A stretch of DNA of 37,732 bases from Mycobacteriales bacterium. Its GTDB lineage: Bacteria > Actinomycetota > Actinomycetes > Mycobacteriales > CADCTP01. The stretch covers positions 1-37,732 of the forward strand of contig DASYKU010000027.1 in NCBI GenBank assembly GCA_035995165.1. The letters are read 5' to 3'. Below, piece by piece: positions 6,694 to 14,400 of this stretch. The notes below the pieces were generated by a model. The model was not told the DNA's origin, did not search any database, and saw nothing but the letters and a program-made list of their open reading frames with translations. How positions within the stretch are numbered: position 1 is the first letter of the stretch; each line of letters starts with the position of its first letter. Made by a program: the position numbers and the translations under genes.

Positions 6694-7446
6694 TCAGGCG
6701 CGCCGGGTGGCCGGGGCGGGCGCGGCCCGGGCCAGCAGCTCCCGCATCCGCGCGGGCAGCTCGCGGGCGCAGTGCACCGGCGCACCGAAGGGGATCCGGA
6801 CGTCCTGACCCCGCGACCGCAGCACCAGACCGTGCCGGTCCAGGGCGACCGGGATCGCGCCGTCCCGCAGCTCCGCCGGCAGCAGGGCGGCCAGCCGGCG
6901 CAGCTCGGCCGGATGGCCGGAGACCAGGTGGCCCAGCAGCGCGGCCTCCGTACCGGCCAGCGGATCGGGCCGGGCGGCGGCATAGTCCGGCGGCCGGAGG
7001 ACCGCGACCGCGCCGATGTCGTCGGGGTCGGTCCCCGTCCCGGCGACGTGCACCTCGACCACGTCGACGTAGAGCACGGTCCGGCCCCGGCCGATGTCCA
7101 GCAGCGCGCCGGCACCGTCCCGGTCGGCGGCGGCCAGGGCGAGCTCGCGGCGCAGCTGCGGCAGCGGCTCGTGCACCCAGCCGATCAGCCGGACCCGGCC
7201 GCGGACCCGGTCGGCGACCGGCACCGGGCAGAAGTCGGCCGCGTCGACGAGGACCGGCAGGTCGCCGGTGGCGCCGCGGACGGCCGTCACCACCGGGTTG
7301 TCCTCGGCGAGCACGAGCACCACGGACCCGTCCGGGTCGGTGCCGTGCAGGTCCACCTCGGCGCAGGCGCCGGGCGTCCGCACCCGCAGGTACGGCGAGA
7401 GCCGCACGGTCGTCCGGGCCCGCTCGGCTGGGGTCGGGTTCGGCAC
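6694..7446 (-). CDS. Iron-regulated DUF2470 (HugZ-like split-barrel) protein
   Basis: Protein of 250 aa with a C-terminal DUF2470-like module at about 160-240, seen as AALLGHLVSGHPAELRRLAALL followed by PVALDRHGLVLRS and the closing VRIPFG strand. The first 150 residues look like a degenerate FMN/heme split barrel, as in HugZ/HutZ heme-utilisation proteins. Known relatives bind or degrade heme, or act in plastid tetrapyrrole control; whether this one keeps catalysis cannot be told. The GTG at 7446 is preceded by GGAGGTGG and, 17 bp upstream, a strong iron box (7464-7482). A TTG further upstream would place the iron box inside the gene and is rejected. It is a single-gene unit ended by a hairpin. 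Repression by an IdeR/DmdR-type regulator in iron-replete cells is the expected control, which suggests a role in iron or heme acquisition. Confidence 0.8.
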   Translation of the reverse strand: MPNPTPAERARTTVRLSPYLRVRTPGACAEVDLHGTDPDGSVVLVLAEDNPVVTAVRGATGDLPVLVDAADFCPVPVADRVRGRVRLIGWVHEPLPQLRRELALAAADRDGAGALLDIGRGRTVLYVDVVEVHVAGTGTDPDDIGAVAVLRPPDYAAARPDPLAGTEAALLGHLVSGHPAELRRLAALLPAELRDGAIPVALDRHGLVLRSRGQDVRIPFGAPVHCARELPARMRELLARAAPAPATRRA

Positions 7447-7463: not shown

Positions 7464-7482
7464 TTAGGTAAGGCAAGCCTAA
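7464..7482. promoter_or_regulatory. Iron box (IdeR/DmdR operator) 1
   Basis: Read on the minus strand the 19-mer TTAGGCTTGCCTTACCTAA matches the IdeR/DmdR consensus TTAGGTTAGSCTAACCTAA at 16 of 19 positions by my count. The outer arms TTAGG/CCTAA are perfect. A TTAACT hexamer overlaps its upstream edge and could be the -10. It lies 17 bp before the GTG of the DUF2470 gene. Confidence 0.85.
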
Positions 7483-7526: not shown

Positions 7527-7596
7527 GGTCGTCCCGCCGGTCAGCCGGCACTGGGTCTCAGGGTCGTCCCGCCGGTCAGCCGGCACCGGGTCTCAG
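7527..7596. repeat. 35-bp tandem duplication carrying two hairpins
   Basis: Two adjacent 35-bp copies (7527-7561 and 7562-7596) differ at a single base (7552 T, 7587 C). Each carries a stem GCCGG-TCAG-CCGGC (7536-7549 and 7571-7584). The second copy contains the stop codon of the flavin oxidoreductase (7593-7595). The pair probably acts as a doubled terminator insulating the downstream iron-box promoter. Confidence 0.7.
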
Positions 7597-8504
7597 GCTG
7601 CGAGCACAGCTGCCACGGCGGCGGCCGCGCGGGCCCCGATCGGCACGCAGGCCCGGACGGCCGAGCCGCAGCCCACCGAGAACAAGCCGGGCCGGTGCTC
7701 GGTGATCCGGGGCAGCTTGTCCCGCCAGTCGACGCCCCAGAGCACCTGCTCGGTGCCGGCCCGGCGCAGGAACGGGAACCGGTCGGCGACCCCGGCGTCG
7801 AGCAGCGCGGCCAGGTGGTCGACCGGGCCGGACAGGTCCTCGTCGGCGACCAGGTCCTCCTGGCCCAGCACCAGCCGCAGCCGGTCCTCGATCGGCTTGA
7901 CGAACACGTACGCGTACCCGTCGCCGATCGGCGCGACCAGGTGCGGCAGCCGGGCCCGGTCCCCGTCCACCGGCAGGTCGAGCACGAACAGCTGCCGCTT
8001 CTCCCGCCCGTACGGCACGTCGACCAGGTCCGCGTTGCCGATGCCGAGCGCGAGCACGACGACCCGGGCCTCCAGCACGCCGCGGTCCCCGACCACCCGG
8101 TGACCGCCGTCGACCGGCTCGATCCCGGTGACCCGGCCGAGGTCGGCGCCGGTCACCCCGGCCTGCGCGGCCAGCCCGGCCAGGTCGGCGACCAGGTCGC
8201 CGGCGGCCAGGTTGAGCGCGGGCACCAGCACGCCCTCGTCCAGGAAGAGGTAAGGCTGCTCGCGGTAGCGGATCCGGGCCCCGGCCGCGACCCGGAGCCG
8301 GACGAAGTCCGCCGTCGCCTTGATCATCGCGGTCTTCTCGGCGTCGTTGCGGTGCCAGCAGACCGCGCCGCCGGAGTTCCGGTACGTGGCCGTGCCGCCG
8401 TCGCCGGTCACCAGCGTGACGCCGCCGACGCCGGCCTGGCTCAGCCCGTACGCCGTGGCCGCACCGATCGGCCCGCACCCGACGACGGCGACCGTGCTCC
8501 TCAA
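7593..8504 (-). CDS. DAO-type FAD-dependent oxidoreductase, iron-regulated operon
   Basis: Predicted flavoenzyme of 303 aa. A dinucleotide-binding motif GCGPIG is at residues 9-14, followed by the Rossmann helix and the expected acidic strand region. The C-terminal part has the FAD-closing segment LFSVGCGSAVRACVPIGARA. The overall pattern fits the D-amino-acid oxidase/glycine oxidase superfamily, though at 303 aa it is shorter than the usual 370-400. Its substrate is probably an amine or amino-acid derivative. The TTG start at 8504 overlaps the upstream ligase stop (TTGA) and has GGGAGG 5 nt before it, so translation is coupled. Co-transcription with the ligase from an iron box suggests both act on one small molecule made under iron limitation. 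An amino-acid dehydrogenase-like role is possible; no specific product is assigned. Confidence 0.8.
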   Translation of the reverse strand: MRSTVAVVGCGPIGAATAYGLSQAGVGGVTLVTGDGGTATYRNSGGAVCWHRNDAEKTAMIKATADFVRLRVAAGARIRYREQPYLFLDEGVLVPALNLAAGDLVADLAGLAAQAGVTGADLGRVTGIEPVDGGHRVVGDRGVLEARVVVLALGIGNADLVDVPYGREKRQLFVLDLPVDGDRARLPHLVAPIGDGYAYVFVKPIEDRLRLVLGQEDLVADEDLSGPVDHLAALLDAGVADRFPFLRRAGTEQVLWGVDWRDKLPRITEHRPGLFSVGCGSAVRACVPIGARAAAAVAAVLAA

Positions 8505-9601
8505 CGCGCCTCCCGCTCCGGGGGACGGTACGGCTCCGGCAGGGGAATCTCACCGGTGCGGCGAAAGGTGTCGATCAGGTCGTGCGCGGGAGTACGGCGC
8601 CGATCCAGCAGCTGCCGCAGCGGTTCCAGCACTCCCCCGCCGAGGGTACCGGCAAGCGCCCGATCGGCCGCGTCCAGAACGTGACCGGCTGCCGTCCGGG
8701 TGTCCGGATCGTCGAAGCCGTGCCGGGCCGCCCGCTCGTGCGCGCCCGGGTCGGGCCGGTCGGCCCGGGCGCCGATCGTGTCGTCCAGGGCGAGCCCGGC
8801 GACCAGCGCGAGCAGCGGCCCGTACAGGTCCGGGGTGGGCGGGGCGTCGAAGGCCTTGAACTCGATCCGGCCGATCTCGGCCGGGATCCGGGCCGCGACG
8901 CCGACCGGCGGCCGTGCGGCCGGCAGGAACGCGCGCGCGGACGGCCGCGCCGGCGCCCGGATCAGCGTCCGGGTCGAGAGCGCCACCACCTCGCCGGCGG
9001 CGAAAGGAGAGGAGAAGGAGAACGGGACCAGCGCCGGGGACAGCGCGGTGAGCTTGCGCCCGACGTCCAGGACCTTGTCCGGGTCCCAGTCCGGGTGCGA
9101 GAGGTTGACGTCCGGCCCGTACCCGACCATGTACGCCTCGGGCGCCGCGTACTCCGGCTTCCGCGCGTGCATCGCGGTCTCCCAGCCGTTGTACGGCGGG
9201 TCCGGCCGGTAGTCCCGCCAGGGGTTGCGGCCCACGCTGGCCAGCCGGAAGCCGTCCACGGCCGCGGCCCGGGCCAGCTCGGCGGTCTGCCCGGCCAGCT
9301 GGGCCACGGTCGCGGCGATCGTGGGCCGGACCGGGGTCCGGGTCTCCAGTCCCTTGGGTACGCAGGCCAGGAACGCGCCGTCCTCGTCGAAGCGCTCGTC
9401 GCCCTCGACGTACCAGCGGGTGAGCTTGACCGCGAGGTCGCCGCGGGTGAGGTCGGGGTCGCCGTGGTCGGGCAGCCGGTCCACGATCCGCTGCGCCTCG
9501 GCGTAGCTCAGGCTGCTGAAGTCGCAGAACCCGCGCTCGCGGTGCACCAGCGCGAACTCCGCCTCGATGCCGAACCGCAGCCGTGCCGGGTCGCCCGCCA
9601 T
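8501..9601 (-). CDS. Glutamate-cysteine ligase (GCS2)-like amide ligase, iron-regulated
   Basis: ATP-dependent carboxylate-amine ligase homologue of 366 aa. The glutamine-synthetase-fold signature FGIEAEF is at residues 10-16. The family's substrate region follows as EAYMVGYGPDVNLSHPDWD, and a later metal-binding strand reads GRIEFKAFD near 248-256. GCS2 enzymes such as EgtA or YbdK join an amino-acid carboxylate to an amine. This protein departs from EgtA and lies outside any ergothioneine cluster, so gamma-glutamylcysteine synthesis should not be assumed. The ATG at 9601 has GGAGGTGGG directly upstream and an iron box 12 bp upstream. It overlaps the next gene by four bases. Expected to be derepressed under iron starvation. 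The product could be a small metallophore, thiol or amide, which is inference only. Confidence 0.78.
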   Translation of the reverse strand: MAGDPARLRFGIEAEFALVHRERGFCDFSSLSYAEAQRIVDRLPDHGDPDLTRGDLAVKLTRWYVEGDERFDEDGAFLACVPKGLETRTPVRPTIAATVAQLAGQTAELARAAAVDGFRLASVGRNPWRDYRPDPPYNGWETAMHARKPEYAAPEAYMVGYGPDVNLSHPDWDPDKVLDVGRKLTALSPALVPFSFSSPFAAGEVVALSTRTLIRAPARPSARAFLPAARPPVGVAARIPAEIGRIEFKAFDAPPTPDLYGPLLALVAGLALDDTIGARADRPDPGAHERAARHGFDDPDTRTAAGHVLDAADRALAGTLGGGVLEPLRQLLDRRRTPAHDLIDTFRRTGEIPLPEPYRPPEREAR

Positions 9602-9612
9602 CCCACCTCCGT

Positions 9613-9631
9613 CCAGGTAAGGCATACCTGA
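9613..9631. promoter_or_regulatory. Iron box (IdeR/DmdR operator) 2
   Basis: Read on the minus strand TCAGGTATGCCTTACCTGG matches the IdeR/DmdR consensus at 13 of 19 positions by my count, keeping the AGGT...ACCT core. Its spacing to the ribosome-binding site and start codon of the ligase gene mirrors that of iron box 1. Weaker than box 1, but the repeated geometry supports it. Confidence 0.7.
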
Positions 9632-9645
9632 CTGCACGGGTGCAG
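9632..9645. repeat. Perfect dyad abutting iron box 2
   Basis: CTGCAC-GG-GTGCAG, six perfect base pairs with a 2-nt centre, lies between the stop of the NurA-like gene (9659) and iron box 2. The 2-nt centre is too tight for a good RNA loop, so a second operator is as likely as a terminator. Confidence 0.4.
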
Positions 9646-9658
9646 GCGGGACAAGCCC

Positions 9659-10597
9659 CTACGCGGGTACCAGCACGGGTCCGGCCGCGGCGGTGCGGAG
9701 CGCCCGCTCCAGCAGCAGCCGGTCGCCGAGCCGGCGTCGCAGCAGCCGCTCCAGCCCGCCGATCGGGTAGAGGTTCTGCGGCGCCCGCGGGTCCTTGTGC
9801 TCGACCGAGGCGTACCGCGGCAGCACGGCCTGGGACAGCGCGGCCAGCTCCAGCACGTCCTCCAGCGGCAGGTCCGGGCACTCGATCCGGACCACCCCGG
9901 CCCAGGGCGCACCCGGCCGGCAGGGCAGCCGCAGGTACCAGGAGCAGCGCGGCCAGTCCGAGCCGAGCCGGAAGACCGGGGTCCGCTCGGCCGGGCCGAG
10001 CTCGCCGACCAGCGCGTGCAGCCCCGGGTCGAGGTAGCGGGACCGGTGCGTCTTGACCATGCCCAGCACCCGGGCCAGCTGGCCGCGCCGGGACAGCGGC
10101 CCGTCCAGCACGAGCAGGTCGTCCGGCTCGGTCCGGGCCAGCAGCGCGCACTCGGCCTCGGTGTCGGCCATCGCCCCCTGCAGCGCGTTGGACAGCCGCA
10201 GGTCGTCGTCCGCGTCCGCCTTCTGGGCCTCGTACGTGGCCAGCCTCATCCGCAGGTCCGGTACGCCCTTGGCCGGGGTGAACAGCCCGCGCTTGACCCG
10301 GATCAGGTCGGCCCGGGCCTCGCCCCGCCGGCAGCTGACCACCCCGGCCGCGTACGAGGCGGCCAGGCCGGCGACCGCACCGCCGTCGGACTCGAACCAC
10401 ATGTGCGCGTCGACCCGGCGGACGCCGTCGACGAAGTGGATCGCGTCCGGGCCTTGGAGCGAGCGCGCCGGGATCGGACGCCACCGCGGCGGGGGCACCT
10501 CCAGCGCGGGGTCGGTGCCGGTCTCGGAGCTGCCGAGCGGCTCCTGGTCCGGGCTCGTCCCGTACGCCGGGTCCCACGCGTCGACCCAGAACCTCAT
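9659..10597 (-). CDS. nurA: NurA-like 5'-3' nuclease
   Basis: Predicted NurA-family nuclease of 312 aa. NurA degrades DNA 5' to 3' inside a complex with the HerA translocase. Family landmarks are visible: HFVDGVRRVDAHMW around residues 54-67 (metal-binding Asp), LLVLDGPLS at 161-169 (second acidic strand), VKTHRSRYL at 181-189, and a C-terminal HKDPRAPQNLYPIGGLE segment. The start codon overlaps the sbcC stop as ATGA (10594-10597), indicating translational coupling. It is the last gene of sbcD-sbcC-nurA, with herA just upstream on the same strand. The assignment rests on motifs and on the presence of HerA, Mre11 and Rad50 homologues together. Sequence identity to archaeal NurA is probably low. 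Confidence 0.75.
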   Translation of the reverse strand: MRFWVDAWDPAYGTSPDQEPLGSSETGTDPALEVPPPRWRPIPARSLQGPDAIHFVDGVRRVDAHMWFESDGGAVAGLAASYAAGVVSCRRGEARADLIRVKRGLFTPAKGVPDLRMRLATYEAQKADADDDLRLSNALQGAMADTEAECALLARTEPDDLLVLDGPLSRRGQLARVLGMVKTHRSRYLDPGLHALVGELGPAERTPVFRLGSDWPRCSWYLRLPCRPGAPWAGVVRIECPDLPLEDVLELAALSQAVLPRYASVEHKDPRAPQNLYPIGGLERLLRRRLGDRLLLERALRTAAAGPVLVPA

Positions 10598-12990
10598 ACG
10601 TCCTGCCGTTCCACGCTGGAGCCGGCCGCGGTCCGGGTGACCGCGAACCGGACCGGGACCCGCTCGGCCAGCGCGCCGACGTGGGTGACCACGCCGACCA
10701 TCCGGTCGCCGCCGGCGGTGAGACTCTCCAGAGTGGACGCGACGACGTCCAGAGTGGACTCGTCCAGGGTGCCGAAGCCCTCGTCCAGCACGATCGTGTC
10801 CAGCCGCGCGGTGCCGCCGACGGCCAGCCCGGCCAGCTGGGCCGAGAGCGCCAGCGCGAGCGCCAGGCTGGCCTGGAACGTCTCCCCGCCGGAGAGGGTC
10901 CGTACCGGCCGGCGGCTGTCCGCGTCGGCGTGGTCGACGACCTCGAAGTCCTTGCCGTCGTGGGTCAGCTCGAACTGGCCGCCGGACAGCTCCAGCAGGG
11001 TCGCGCTGGCATCCGCGACCAGCACGTCCAGGGCCGAGGTCAGCAGCCAGCGCTCGAAGCCGTCGGCCCGCAGCAGCTGCCCGAGGAGCTTGGCCACGGC
11101 CGCGTCCTCCTCGGCGGCCCGGACGGTCTCGCGCAGCGCGCCGGCCTCGGCCCGGCGCTCGGCGATCCGGGCCGCCGTCCCCCGGGCCCGCCCCTCGGCC
11201 GCGACCACGGCCGGCTCCGCCGCCTCGGCCAGCGGCCGGCGCGGGTCGATCTCGACGCCGTGTCCCGTCAGCTCCGCCCGCAGCGCCGCCTCCCGGTCGG
11301 CCAGCGTGGCCGCGATCGCCGCCCGGCCCTGACCCGCCGCGACGACCTGGGCGTCCCGCTGCTCGGCCGCGGCCAGCGCCCAGTCGGCCAGCGCGAGCCA
11401 GTCGGCGGCCAGGTCGGCCCGCTCCGGCGGTGGCGCGCCCAGGGCGACGAGCGGGTCGCGGGCGGCGTCCAGCCCGGCCCGGGCGGCGGCCAGCCTGGCC
11501 CCGGCGTCCCGGTCGGCGGCGGCCGCGGCCTCCCGGGCCCGGCGGGCGTCCCGGACCGCGCGGTCGGCGGCCCGGGCCTCCTGCTCGGCCTTCTCCAGCT
11601 CGGCCAGGGCCGCGCCGACCCGGGCCGCGTCCGGCCGGCCGGCCAGCCGCGACCGCAGCTGCTCGGCCCGGGCGGCGAGCTGGTCGGCCCGGCCGCCGGC
11701 AGTGTGGGCGGCCCGGCTGGCCGCCTGCCAGCCCTTCTGCAGGCGGGCCACCTCGGCGTCGGCGGCCGCGACGGCCCGGTCGGCCGCGGGCAGGTCGGGG
11801 GCCGGGTGCTCGATCGGCAGCATCGCCAGCGGCTGGTCGCAGACCGGGCAGGGCTCGCCCGCGACCAGATGCGGACGCAACGCGGCGGCCAGGTTGGCGG
11901 TCCGCAGCCGCTCCCGCTGCTCTCCGGCCGCCGTGACGGCCTCCCGGGCGGCGGCGCCGTCCCGCTCCACCGCCTGCACCCTCGCGTCGGCCGCGGCCCG
12001 CTCGGACAGCGCGGCCGGCAGCGCGGCGGTCACCTCGGCCAGCTCGGCCCAGGCGTCCCGGGCCTGCTCCAGCGCGGCCCGGTCGCCGGCGTCGTCGCGA
12101 GCGTCGCGGGCGGCGGTGTCCACCTTCTCCGCGCCGGCCAGCGCGTCGTCGGCCAGGGCCAGCGCGGCGGCCGCGGTCCGGCCCCGCTCGGCCAGCTCCT
12201 CCAGTCCGGGCGGCACCCGCAGCGCCGCCAGCAGGGTCCGCTCCCCGGTCAGCCGGCGGACCTCGGTGTCGGCGGCGGACAGCGCCCGGGCGGCCTCGGC
12301 CAGCTCCGGCACGGTCGCCGCGACGGTCGCGGCCAGCGCCCGCAGCGCGTCGGCCCGCCCGGCCGCGGCGGTCTCGGCCGCCTCGGTCGCGTCCGCATAC
12401 CCGGCCAGGTGGCCGGCGGCGAACTCGGCCTGCTGGCGCCGGGTCGCCGCCTCGGCCCGGGCCCGCTCCGCGATCTCCCGGTAGATCCGGATGCCGAGCA
12501 GGTCGACCAGGGTGTCCTGGCGCTCCTTCGCGGTGGAGTGCAGGAACCGGGCGAAGTCCCCCTGGGGCAGGATCACGCAGCGGACGAAGTGGTCGTAGGA
12601 GAGCCCGAGCAGCCGTTCCACCGCGGCGCTGACCTCGCCGTCGGCCGCGATCACCTCGCCGCCCCGCTCCAGCCGGGCGTTCTTCACGGTGACCTTGCCC
12701 TGGGCCGAGCGGCGCAGCTCCCGGGCCGCGGTGTAGCGCTCGGAGCCGACGTCGAAGACCAGCTTGACCACACCGCGGGTCGCGGTCGGGGCCAGCGCCC
12801 AGCCGACCGCCCGCCGGTCCTCCCAGCGCGGCACCGAGCCGTACAGGGCGAAGATGATCGCGTCGACCACGGTCGACTTGCCGGCCCCGGTCGGGCCGAC
12901 GAGCGCGAACCAGTCGGCGTCGCGGAAGTCCACAGTGGACGGTGTCCGGAACGAGCCGAACCCGTCGAGGTCCAGCTGGACCGGCCTCAC
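10594..12990 (-). CDS. sbcC: SbcC/Rad50-type SMC ATPase
   Basis: ATPase subunit of the SbcCD (Rad50-Mre11) complex, which tethers and opens DNA ends and hairpins. The 798-aa protein has Walker A GPTGAGKST at residues 32-40, a Q-loop LPQGDFARFL at 141-150, and a long Ala/Arg/Glu-rich coiled coil. At its apex is a zinc hook CPVC at 381-384. The ABC signature LSGGETFQ is at 699-706 and Walker B IVLDEGFGTLD near 733-743. The GTG start at 12990 overlaps the sbcD stop as GTGA. It is shorter than E. coli SbcC but usual for actinobacteria. All catalytic elements are intact. A palindrome GTCCACAGTGGAC lies inside the coding region at 12928-12940. Confidence 0.95.
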   Translation of the reverse strand: MRPVQLDLDGFGSFRTPSTVDFRDADWFALVGPTGAGKSTVVDAIIFALYGSVPRWEDRRAVGWALAPTATRGVVKLVFDVGSERYTAARELRRSAQGKVTVKNARLERGGEVIAADGEVSAAVERLLGLSYDHFVRCVILPQGDFARFLHSTAKERQDTLVDLLGIRIYREIAERARAEAATRRQQAEFAAGHLAGYADATEAAETAAAGRADALRALAATVAATVPELAEAARALSAADTEVRRLTGERTLLAALRVPPGLEELAERGRTAAAALALADDALAGAEKVDTAARDARDDAGDRAALEQARDAWAELAEVTAALPAALSERAAADARVQAVERDGAAAREAVTAAGEQRERLRTANLAAALRPHLVAGEPCPVCDQPLAMLPIEHPAPDLPAADRAVAAADAEVARLQKGWQAASRAAHTAGGRADQLAARAEQLRSRLAGRPDAARVGAALAELEKAEQEARAADRAVRDARRAREAAAAADRDAGARLAAARAGLDAARDPLVALGAPPPERADLAADWLALADWALAAAEQRDAQVVAAGQGRAAIAATLADREAALRAELTGHGVEIDPRRPLAEAAEPAVVAAEGRARGTAARIAERRAEAGALRETVRAAEEDAAVAKLLGQLLRADGFERWLLTSALDVLVADASATLLELSGGQFELTHDGKDFEVVDHADADSRRPVRTLSGGETFQASLALALALSAQLAGLAVGGTARLDTIVLDEGFGTLDESTLDVVASTLESLTAGGDRMVGVVTHVGALAERVPVRFAVTRTAAGSSVERQDV
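12928..12940. repeat. TCCACAGTGGA palindrome, copy in sbcC
   Basis: GTCCACAGTGGAC, 13 bp, symmetric around one central base, near the 5' end of sbcC. One of four exact TCCAC-A/T-GTGGA elements in the window. Confidence 0.6.
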
Positions 12991-14141
12991 GCTGTCTCTC
13001 CCGCGACGAGGGCGTCGTGCAGCCGGGCGAAGAGGGCCTCGACCCGGGGGTCGGCGACGTCCCGGTCGCGCAGGTAGTCGTGCAGCAGCTCGCCCGGGGC
13101 CCGGTCGGTCCGGGGCCGGGCCGGGGTGTGCCCGGCCGGCTCGGCCCGCTCGACGTGCACCTCCAGCGCGCCCGGCAGCAGCTCCTGGACCTCCTCGCGC
13201 AGCCCCGCCCGGGCCGGCTCGGCCACCACGACCTTCAGCAGATCAGCCGCATCGACCTCCAGCCGGGCCAACTCGGCCAGCGTCCCGCGGACCGTGCGCA
13301 GCCGCCGGGCCGAGGTGATCGGCACGTCCGTCACGCGGGCCGGCACCCCCGGCGCGGCCTCCACCAGCAGCACCACCGGCGAGCTGTCGACCTCGCCGAA
13401 GTCCACCCGCAGCGGCGATCCGCTGTAGTGCACCGGGCACGGCGCCGGGACGGACTGGCGGCGGTGCAGGTGCCCGAGCGCGACGTAGTGCGCCTCGGCC
13501 GGGAACGCCGCCGCCGGCACGTGGTACTCGAAGATCGACTGCGCCTGCCGCTCGCCGCCGCCCATCGCGGCCCCGGTGACCGTCAGGTGGGTGAGCACGA
13601 CATTCACCGCGGCCGGGTCGAAGCCGGTGGCCAGCGCGGCGATGATGCCGCGGACCCAGGCGTCGTAGCCGGCCGAGTTCTCGGCCGGGGTGTGCTGGAG
13701 CAGCTCGGCCGCGCGCACCGCGTACCGCTGGGAGAGGAAGGGCAGCGCTGCGATCCGGACCGGCGAGCCGTCGGAGCGGGCGTCGAAGGCGATCACCCCG
13801 CCGTCCGCGGGCCGCCGGACCCGGCCGACCAGGGTGATGCCGGCCGCCCCGGCCAGCGGCCGGTACGCGTCCAGGGTCGGCGCGTGGTCGTGGTTGCCGG
13901 CGATCGCGATCACCTGCGCGCCGGTGTCCCGCAGCGCCAGCAGCGTCCGGATCACCAGCTGCTGGGCCTCCGCGCCCGGGGTCGCGGTCTCGTACAGGTC
14001 GCCGGCCACCAGCACCGCGTCGACCTGCTCAACTGCGGCGATGCGGACGATCTCGGCCAGCACCTCACGCTGCTCGGGCAGCCGGTCGTGCCCCTTGAGG
14101 GTCTTGCCGACGTGCCAGTCGGAGGTGTGCAGGAAGCGCAC
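12987..14141 (-). CDS. sbcD: SbcD/Mre11-type nuclease
   Basis: Metallophosphoesterase nuclease partner of SbcC, 384 aa, normal length. The five phosphoesterase motifs are present: DWH at residues 8-10, GDLYE with Asp48, GNHD at 82-85, a later His in VVLTHLT, and GHLHRR. It should bind two Mn ions and cut single-stranded DNA and hairpin ends, with 3'-5' exonuclease activity. The GTG at 14141 is preceded by GGAGGAGGGG; an in-frame ATG at 14342 would add 67 low-complexity residues before the canonical FLHTSDWH start and is rejected. The stop overlaps the sbcC start. It heads the sbcD-sbcC-nurA unit, separated from herA by 262 bp. Confidence 0.95.
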   Translation of the reverse strand: MRFLHTSDWHVGKTLKGHDRLPEQREVLAEIVRIAAVEQVDAVLVAGDLYETATPGAEAQQLVIRTLLALRDTGAQVIAIAGNHDHAPTLDAYRPLAGAAGITLVGRVRRPADGGVIAFDARSDGSPVRIAALPFLSQRYAVRAAELLQHTPAENSAGYDAWVRGIIAALATGFDPAAVNVVLTHLTVTGAAMGGGERQAQSIFEYHVPAAAFPAEAHYVALGHLHRRQSVPAPCPVHYSGSPLRVDFGEVDSSPVVLLVEAAPGVPARVTDVPITSARRLRTVRGTLAELARLEVDAADLLKVVVAEPARAGLREEVQELLPGALEVHVERAEPAGHTPARPRTDRAPGELLHDYLRDRDVADPRVEALFARLHDALVAGETA

Positions 14142-14292
14142 TGTCCCCTCCTCCCGGGCCGGCCGACCGCGACACCGTACGTCCGCGGACGGCCCGGACC
14201 GGACCGTCCACGCCGGTAGGCCCCAGATCCGCCCACGGGCGGCCGGGGCCGGGCGCGGTGGGGCGGGCGGCCGGCGCGGGACCGGATCACCC

Positions 14293-14400
14293 GTGCCGAC
14301 CTCACCGCTGCCCACCGAGCTGCGCGCGAACGGCCGGGTCAACGCCTGGATCGAGATCGACCGCGGGAACGGTCGGGACGCCGCGAAGGACGCCGGCTGA
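14293..14400 (+). CDS. Possible 35-aa small ORF between sbcD and herA
   Basis: A GTG-started frame encodes a 35-aa peptide ending in WIEIDRGNGRDAAKDAG, with G or C at most third positions. It runs opposite to the flanking genes and fills part of the only sizeable gap (14142-14403) in the resection cluster. No ribosome-binding site or TANNNT hexamer was found. It could be the 3' end of a lost gene or chance high-GC coding-like sequence. Confidence 0.25.
   Translation: MPTSPLPTELRANGRVNAWIEIDRGNGRDAAKDAG

Follow-up and report, generated by a model that had tools for sequence, protein, structure and literature searches.

The window analysed here, a stretch of 37,732 nucleotides from a Mycobacteriales bacterium (contig DASYKU010000027.1), carries on its minus strand a gene for a GCS2-superfamily ATP-dependent carboxylate-amine ligase (8501..9601; 366 amino acids, ATG at 9601, stop codon at 8501-8503), followed by a gene for a DAO-family FAD amine oxidoreductase (7593..8504; 303 amino acids, TTG start at 8504, stop at 7593). 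The start of the flavoenzyme gene overlaps the stop codon of the ligase gene by four bases, TTGA, with a GGGAGG motif just 5′ of the TTG, and this overlap would couple the translation of the two proteins. Values of GC by codon position (0.77/0.55/0.94 for the ligase and 0.80/0.50/0.98 for the flavoenzyme) are typical of real genes in this DNA, and we therefore regard both as real. Neighbouring genes were judged by the same measure together with direct searches; raw six-frame clustering of neighbours was swamped by shadow ORFs in the GC-rich DNA and was discarded. Directly upstream of the ligase, genes for NurA, SbcC and SbcD occupy 9659-14342 on the minus strand (Pfam identifies NurA, whereas SbcC and SbcD were assigned by reading), and the NurA-ligase neighbourhood is also found in the sister genome. 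On the other side of the pair lies a minus-strand gene for a DUF2470 protein (6694..7446; 250 amino acids, GTG start; DUF2470 match of 27.9 bits over a cut-off of 22) with an iron box of its own. No transporter, receptor or exporter gene was found beside the pair in the window. Between the DAO stop codon and the DUF2470 promoter, two copies of a 35-bp tandem repeat, 97% identical, span 7527-7597 and extend to that stop codon.

The ligase-flavoenzyme operon has a putative iron box of the IdeR/DmdR type at 9613..9631 on the minus strand (coding strand TCAGGTATGCCTTACCTGG), which matches TTAGGTTAGGCTAACCTAA at 12/19 positions. A gap of 11 bp, containing GGAGGTGGG, separates the box from the ligase ATG, and the box sits just ahead of the ligase Shine-Dalgarno sequence; its core, AGGTAAGGCATACCT at 9615-9629 on the plus strand, is an exact match. 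When the whole window was searched with the pattern AGGTAAGGCNNACCT, allowing at most one mismatch, two sites were found compared with 0.02 expected from shuffled windows, and 0/100 shuffles of the window contained two such sites. A second putative iron box, TTAGGTAAGGCAAGCCTAA, lies before the DUF2470 gene (7464..7482, minus strand) and has 0 mismatches to TTAGGTNAGGCNANCCTAA. This is the best iron box of the genome, better than that of the ligase, and the sister genome (L020, L010) retains it. An earlier note on this DNA had described a single iron box; the site at 9613-9631 is real, but the second and better box had been omitted.

The second box is an ordinary one, because its DUF2470 gene belongs with Rv3839, which in M. 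tuberculosis is under IdeR control and linked to the regulation of heme (PMC13258150). The box at 7464-7482 and its gene thus form a unit of their own, from a known class of heme regulators under IdeR, and the DUF2470 gene probably provides iron context rather than belonging to the same pathway as the ligase-DAO pair. What the window has in common with Rv3839-Rv3840 is a DUF2470 gene preceded by an iron box, here adjoining the pair; this gene and its box are separate from the pair, and the Rv3839-Rv3840 system includes neither a ligase nor a DAO protein. Elsewhere in the genome, good boxes are found ahead of EfeO/EfeB-like paired genes for an imelysin and a Dyp-peroxidase and ahead of a gene for an SBP_bac_6 binding protein, so that the motif picks out iron-type genes in this organism. 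A DtxR/IdeR-type repressor is encoded in the genome, and with this regulator and a promoter box the ligase-flavoenzyme operon shows two features of an IdeR/DmdR regulon; on this basis the operon is predicted to bind IdeR and to be under its control.

The match of the ligase to Pfam GCS2 (PF04107) is weak, at 22.3 bits against a cut-off of 21. Residues E13, E15, E86, E247 and D252 are nevertheless invariant, and since these acidic residues are common to the genome's own EgtA and YbdK-type proteins, the ligase is probably catalytic. The structural model (pLDDT 92) gave Z scores of 29.2 to the plant glutamate-cysteine ligase 2gwc and 27.6 to YbdK 1r8g, with GS folds far lower than GCS folds (about 15 versus 29). 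Profile match, fold and catalytic acidic residues together place the protein in the GCS2 superfamily. Its NCBIfam scores are well under every equivalog cut-off, which assigns it to a subfamily without named function; judged from these scores, it is a separate GCS2 subfamily, apart from EgtA and YbdK. It has the superfamily fold and the catalytic acidic motifs in common with the EgtA and YbdK carboxylate-amine ligases, but is set apart from them by these low scores, by an aligned identity of 26-29% and by the lack of an egt context. A role as EgtA was considered and rejected: the ligase scores 18.6 bits with TIGR03444, where 370.8 are needed, and NurA, SbcC and DUF2470 are found in place of egtB, egtC or egtD neighbours. 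A better candidate is encoded on contig C109, where a protein scoring 353 bits over the full model length, under the 370.8 cut-off, lies near an EgtC-like start and is likely, from its sequence, to be the EgtA of this genome. Other full GCS2 proteins are present in the genome as well. The score, the neighbours and the C109 candidate show that the window ligase is not EgtA, in line with the earlier note, which did not take EgtA as the default function.

The flavoenzyme matches Pfam DAO (PF01266) at 67.3 bits (cut-off 27.9), and residues G9, G11, P12 and G14 of its GxGxxG motif are invariant. Its model (pLDDT 88) is closest to proline dehydrogenase 3axb (Z 26.9) and sarcosine oxidase (Z 25.9), so that profile, motif and fold agree on a DAO FAD oxidoreductase. 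Like MSOX, NikD and proline dehydrogenase of the DAO family, it has the secondary-amine oxidase fold and the FAD motif, but most of these relatives are longer by about 60-120 residues, and it forms a separate subfamily. Gene coordinates, Pfam matches and the exact box core thereby confirm the original observation of a GCS2-type ligase and a DAO-type flavoenzyme overlapping by four bases behind an IdeR/DmdR box; the interpretation that accompanied it is, as a whole, partly supported. The reported lack of NRPS and IucA/IucC genes holds for the window, and an IucA/IucC synthetase of the NRPS-independent siderophore pathway had no match in the whole genome, but NRPS genes do occur elsewhere in the genome.

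A scan of genome contigs yielded 63 ligase loci, which include about 29 from Pseudonocardia, several from Nocardioides, and others from Azotobacter/Azomonas, Chromatiales, Rhodocyclales, Morganella and a few MAGs. Each whole locus was scored for its best match to the iron-box consensus, and at 25 of the 29 Pseudonocardia loci this best box lies no more than 200 bp upstream of the ligase (0.6 expected); 18 of the 29 reach at least 13/19 there, compared with a mean of 0.13 and a maximum of 5 for shuffled palindromic consensuses; the box-bearing loci are related and hence do not represent 29 independent cases. Among the mainly proteobacterial loci, which served as a negative control, the best box was upstream of the ligase in 0/23. 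In a clade of five Nocardioides genomes, the ligase gene and a gene for a ferric-siderophore reductase (SIP, FAD_binding_9) are transcribed away from each other and flank a 15/19 site. An actinobacterial MAG (L022, 7103-8859) has a similar layout around a 14/19 box, but there the divergent gene encodes a DtxR/IdeR-type repressor. A sixth Nocardioides, Nocardioides speluncae (L021), keeps the pair with only an 11/19 site and was counted as having no box; L020, L023 and L042 also lack a ligase box. Across orthologues the picture is mixed: the box recurs in most Pseudonocardia, in five Nocardioides and in L022, but not in the closest sister (L020/L010), which keeps the pair and has a box only before DUF2470. 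The recurrence in the first three supports the predicted iron link of the ligase well.

The closest sister has the same gene order, ligase-DAO-DUF2470, with a ligase 77% identical to that of the window. The DAO subfamily adjoins the ligase in this genome, in six Nocardioides and in one Peribacteraceae MAG. In ten genomes searched for the subfamily it was present only in the Nocardioides one, and the other nine ligase genomes held no close DAO (best E value 1e-7 versus 1e-161); nor was the subfamily found elsewhere in the Pseudonocardia or proteobacterial genomes searched. The other partner of the ligase is a YdjA-like nitroreductase, which is divergently encoded in Pseudonocardia and lies within the operon in proteobacteria. 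No ligase locus has both flavoenzymes, and many have neither adjacent to the ligase. In the ligase tree, which is midpoint-rooted and has some long branches, DAO and nitroreductase partners both occur on either side of a well-supported split, suggesting that one flavoenzyme has been exchanged for another, rather than a single recent event. Conservation of the ligase-oxidoreductase pair, as envisaged in the earlier note, is therefore qualified: the pair does occur in other genomes, but its distribution is rare and patchy, and the ligase elsewhere pairs with a nitroreductase. In broader samples, relatives were found in 1/297 class genomes and 1/199 family genomes, in each case nothing but the query genome or the centre, and both counts are lower bounds because few candidates per genome were scored in the first look. 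Beside the proteobacterial ligases that lack the nitroreductase, neither TonB receptors nor exporters were found, the neighbours being of MetG, Rnf, cytochrome and sulfatase types.

Two further loci deserve mention. The MAG with the pair (L072, 7192-9229) is labelled Candidatus Peribacteraceae and has a TATAAT-like site and no iron box; mis-binning or transfer is possible in this case. The one ligase found in a plasmid search is a distant family member encoded among type IV pilus genes on a conjugative plasmid of Serratia symbiotica, pSsyis1 (L083, 7983-9080), with no DAO gene.

Among the proteobacterial members of the ligase family is Avin_02390, the last gene of the VnfA1-dependent operon Avin_02430-02390 of Azotobacter vinelandii, whose products are a substrate-binding protein, a nickel-binding GTPase, an ABC ATPase, a nitroreductase and a glutamate-cysteine ligase; all but the ligase gene are conserved in proteobacteria with vanadium nitrogenases (PMC9542535). 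The gene order of our A. vinelandii locus (L047) is identical to that of Avin_02430-02390, and judging from species, gene order and position L047 is probably the Avin_02390 locus. The same order occurs in Azomonas, Chromatiales and others. This operon (SBP_bac_6, HypB-like GTPase, ABC ATPase, nitroreductase and GCS2 ligase) spans 4550-9152 in L063, 4612-9134 in L052 and 4643-9122 in L047. In L052 it stands beside alternative-nitrogenase-like D, G and K genes, and in Thiobaca the operon is close to what look, by inspection, like genes for the D, G and K subunits of an alternative nitrogenase. Its substrate-binding protein has, by eye, no obvious signal peptide. What the Azotobacter operon shares with the window pair is control by metal, predicted in the case of the pair, and a flavoenzyme next to a ligase of this family; its ligase is about 40% identical to the window protein. 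It differs in that its flavoenzyme is a nitroreductase, that its regulator is VnfA1, not IdeR, and that it includes three further genes, for the substrate-binding protein, the HypB-like GTPase and the ABC ATPase.

As the family is found both behind actinobacterial iron switches and in the Azotobacter vanadium-nitrogenase operon, it probably makes a small molecule for metal nutrition. We propose that IdeR/DmdR would repress the ligase-flavoenzyme operon when iron is plentiful, and that under iron shortage the two cytosolic enzymes would be made in coupled amounts. The GCS2-type ligase would use ATP to activate a carboxylate, probably that of glutamate or a similar amino acid, and join it to an amine, and the DAO-type flavoenzyme would take two electrons from an amine carbon of the ligase product or its precursor, such that amide formation may be followed or preceded by flavin-dependent amine oxidation. 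A small amino-acid-derived molecule would thereby be made or remodelled and would assist the cell in acquiring or managing a metal in short supply, its most plausible role being that of a metal ligand. The locus is a real, rare, patchily distributed and metal-associated ligase-plus-flavoenzyme operon, a predicted member of the iron regulon, and its iron control is better supported than its product. We tentatively take it as a low-iron module in which amide formation and amine oxidation yield a small metal-related metabolite, the substrates and the metal role being presumed, and we regard this as a substantial possibility rather than as the expected outcome. More speculatively, the product could be a new class of small metal ligand, a metallophore or an intracellular chelator, made independently of NRPS or IucA/IucC by a GCS2-type ligase with an exchangeable DAO or nitroreductase and common to iron-starved actinobacteria and vanadium-dependent nitrogen fixers; taken as a whole, this extended reading is rather unlikely.

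A catabolic or salvage function, following the gamma-glutamyl-amine logic of PuuA-PuuB, also has to be weighed. The Puu arrangement combines a ligase of the glutamine-synthetase-like superfamily with a DAO-family oxidase, and the window pair, again a superfamily ligase and a DAO-family oxidase acting on an amine, could work in this way: the ligase would attach glutamate to an amine, either a polyamine or one set free from a siderophore, and the DAO protein would oxidise it to an aldehyde, recovering carbon and nitrogen or removing a toxic amine under iron limitation. The folds of both enzymes fit this scheme, as does the use of any flavoenzyme as partner. However, the ligase is of the GCS type (Pfam GCS2) and not of the glutamine-synthetase type of PuuA, the oxidase is short at 303 amino acids, and neither PuuC nor PuuD, nor any aldehyde dehydrogenase or gamma-glutamyl hydrolase, is encoded beside the pair, where NurA/SbcCD and DUF2470 lie instead. 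The iron control of the pair is a further difference, and regulation by iron and vanadium is unexpected for polyamine use. We consider salvage improbable.

Flavin enzymes often replace iron enzymes, and glutamate-cysteine ligases are among the nearest solved folds of the window ligase, which would suit an iron-sparing or redox function in which the ligase product is gamma-Glu-Cys or a similar thiol-type peptide, or else a modified cofactor for low-iron metabolism, while the flavoenzyme substitutes for an iron-dependent oxidation. However, further full GCS2 proteins are already encoded in the genome, among them the near-cut-off EgtA close to an EgtC-like gene, and the ligase subfamily falls far under the EgtA and glutamate-cysteine ligase cut-offs, leaving this option with little probability. 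It is similarly doubtful that the ligase box is incidental in this lineage, with DUF2470 as the real iron gene and the pair engaged in unrelated amino-acid chemistry: the DUF2470 box is indeed the better one and the sole box kept in the sister genome, but the exact core at 9615-9629 is improbable by chance and boxes recur upstream of the ligase where tblastn gave no DUF2470 match.

For the pair or its product, we found no literature beyond PMC9542535 and PMC13258150, and a paper that mined the DmdR1 regulon makes no mention of such a ligase (PMC12161575). On the favoured reading of a low-iron module for a metal-related metabolite, one uncharacterised ligase family would link the iron-stress and vanadium-nitrogenase responses to one small molecule, and the function of Avin_02390 could be approached from two sides, the actinobacterial iron switch and the Azotobacter vanadium regulon. 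Such a product would escape siderophore mining, which depends on signatures of NRPS and IucA/IucC.
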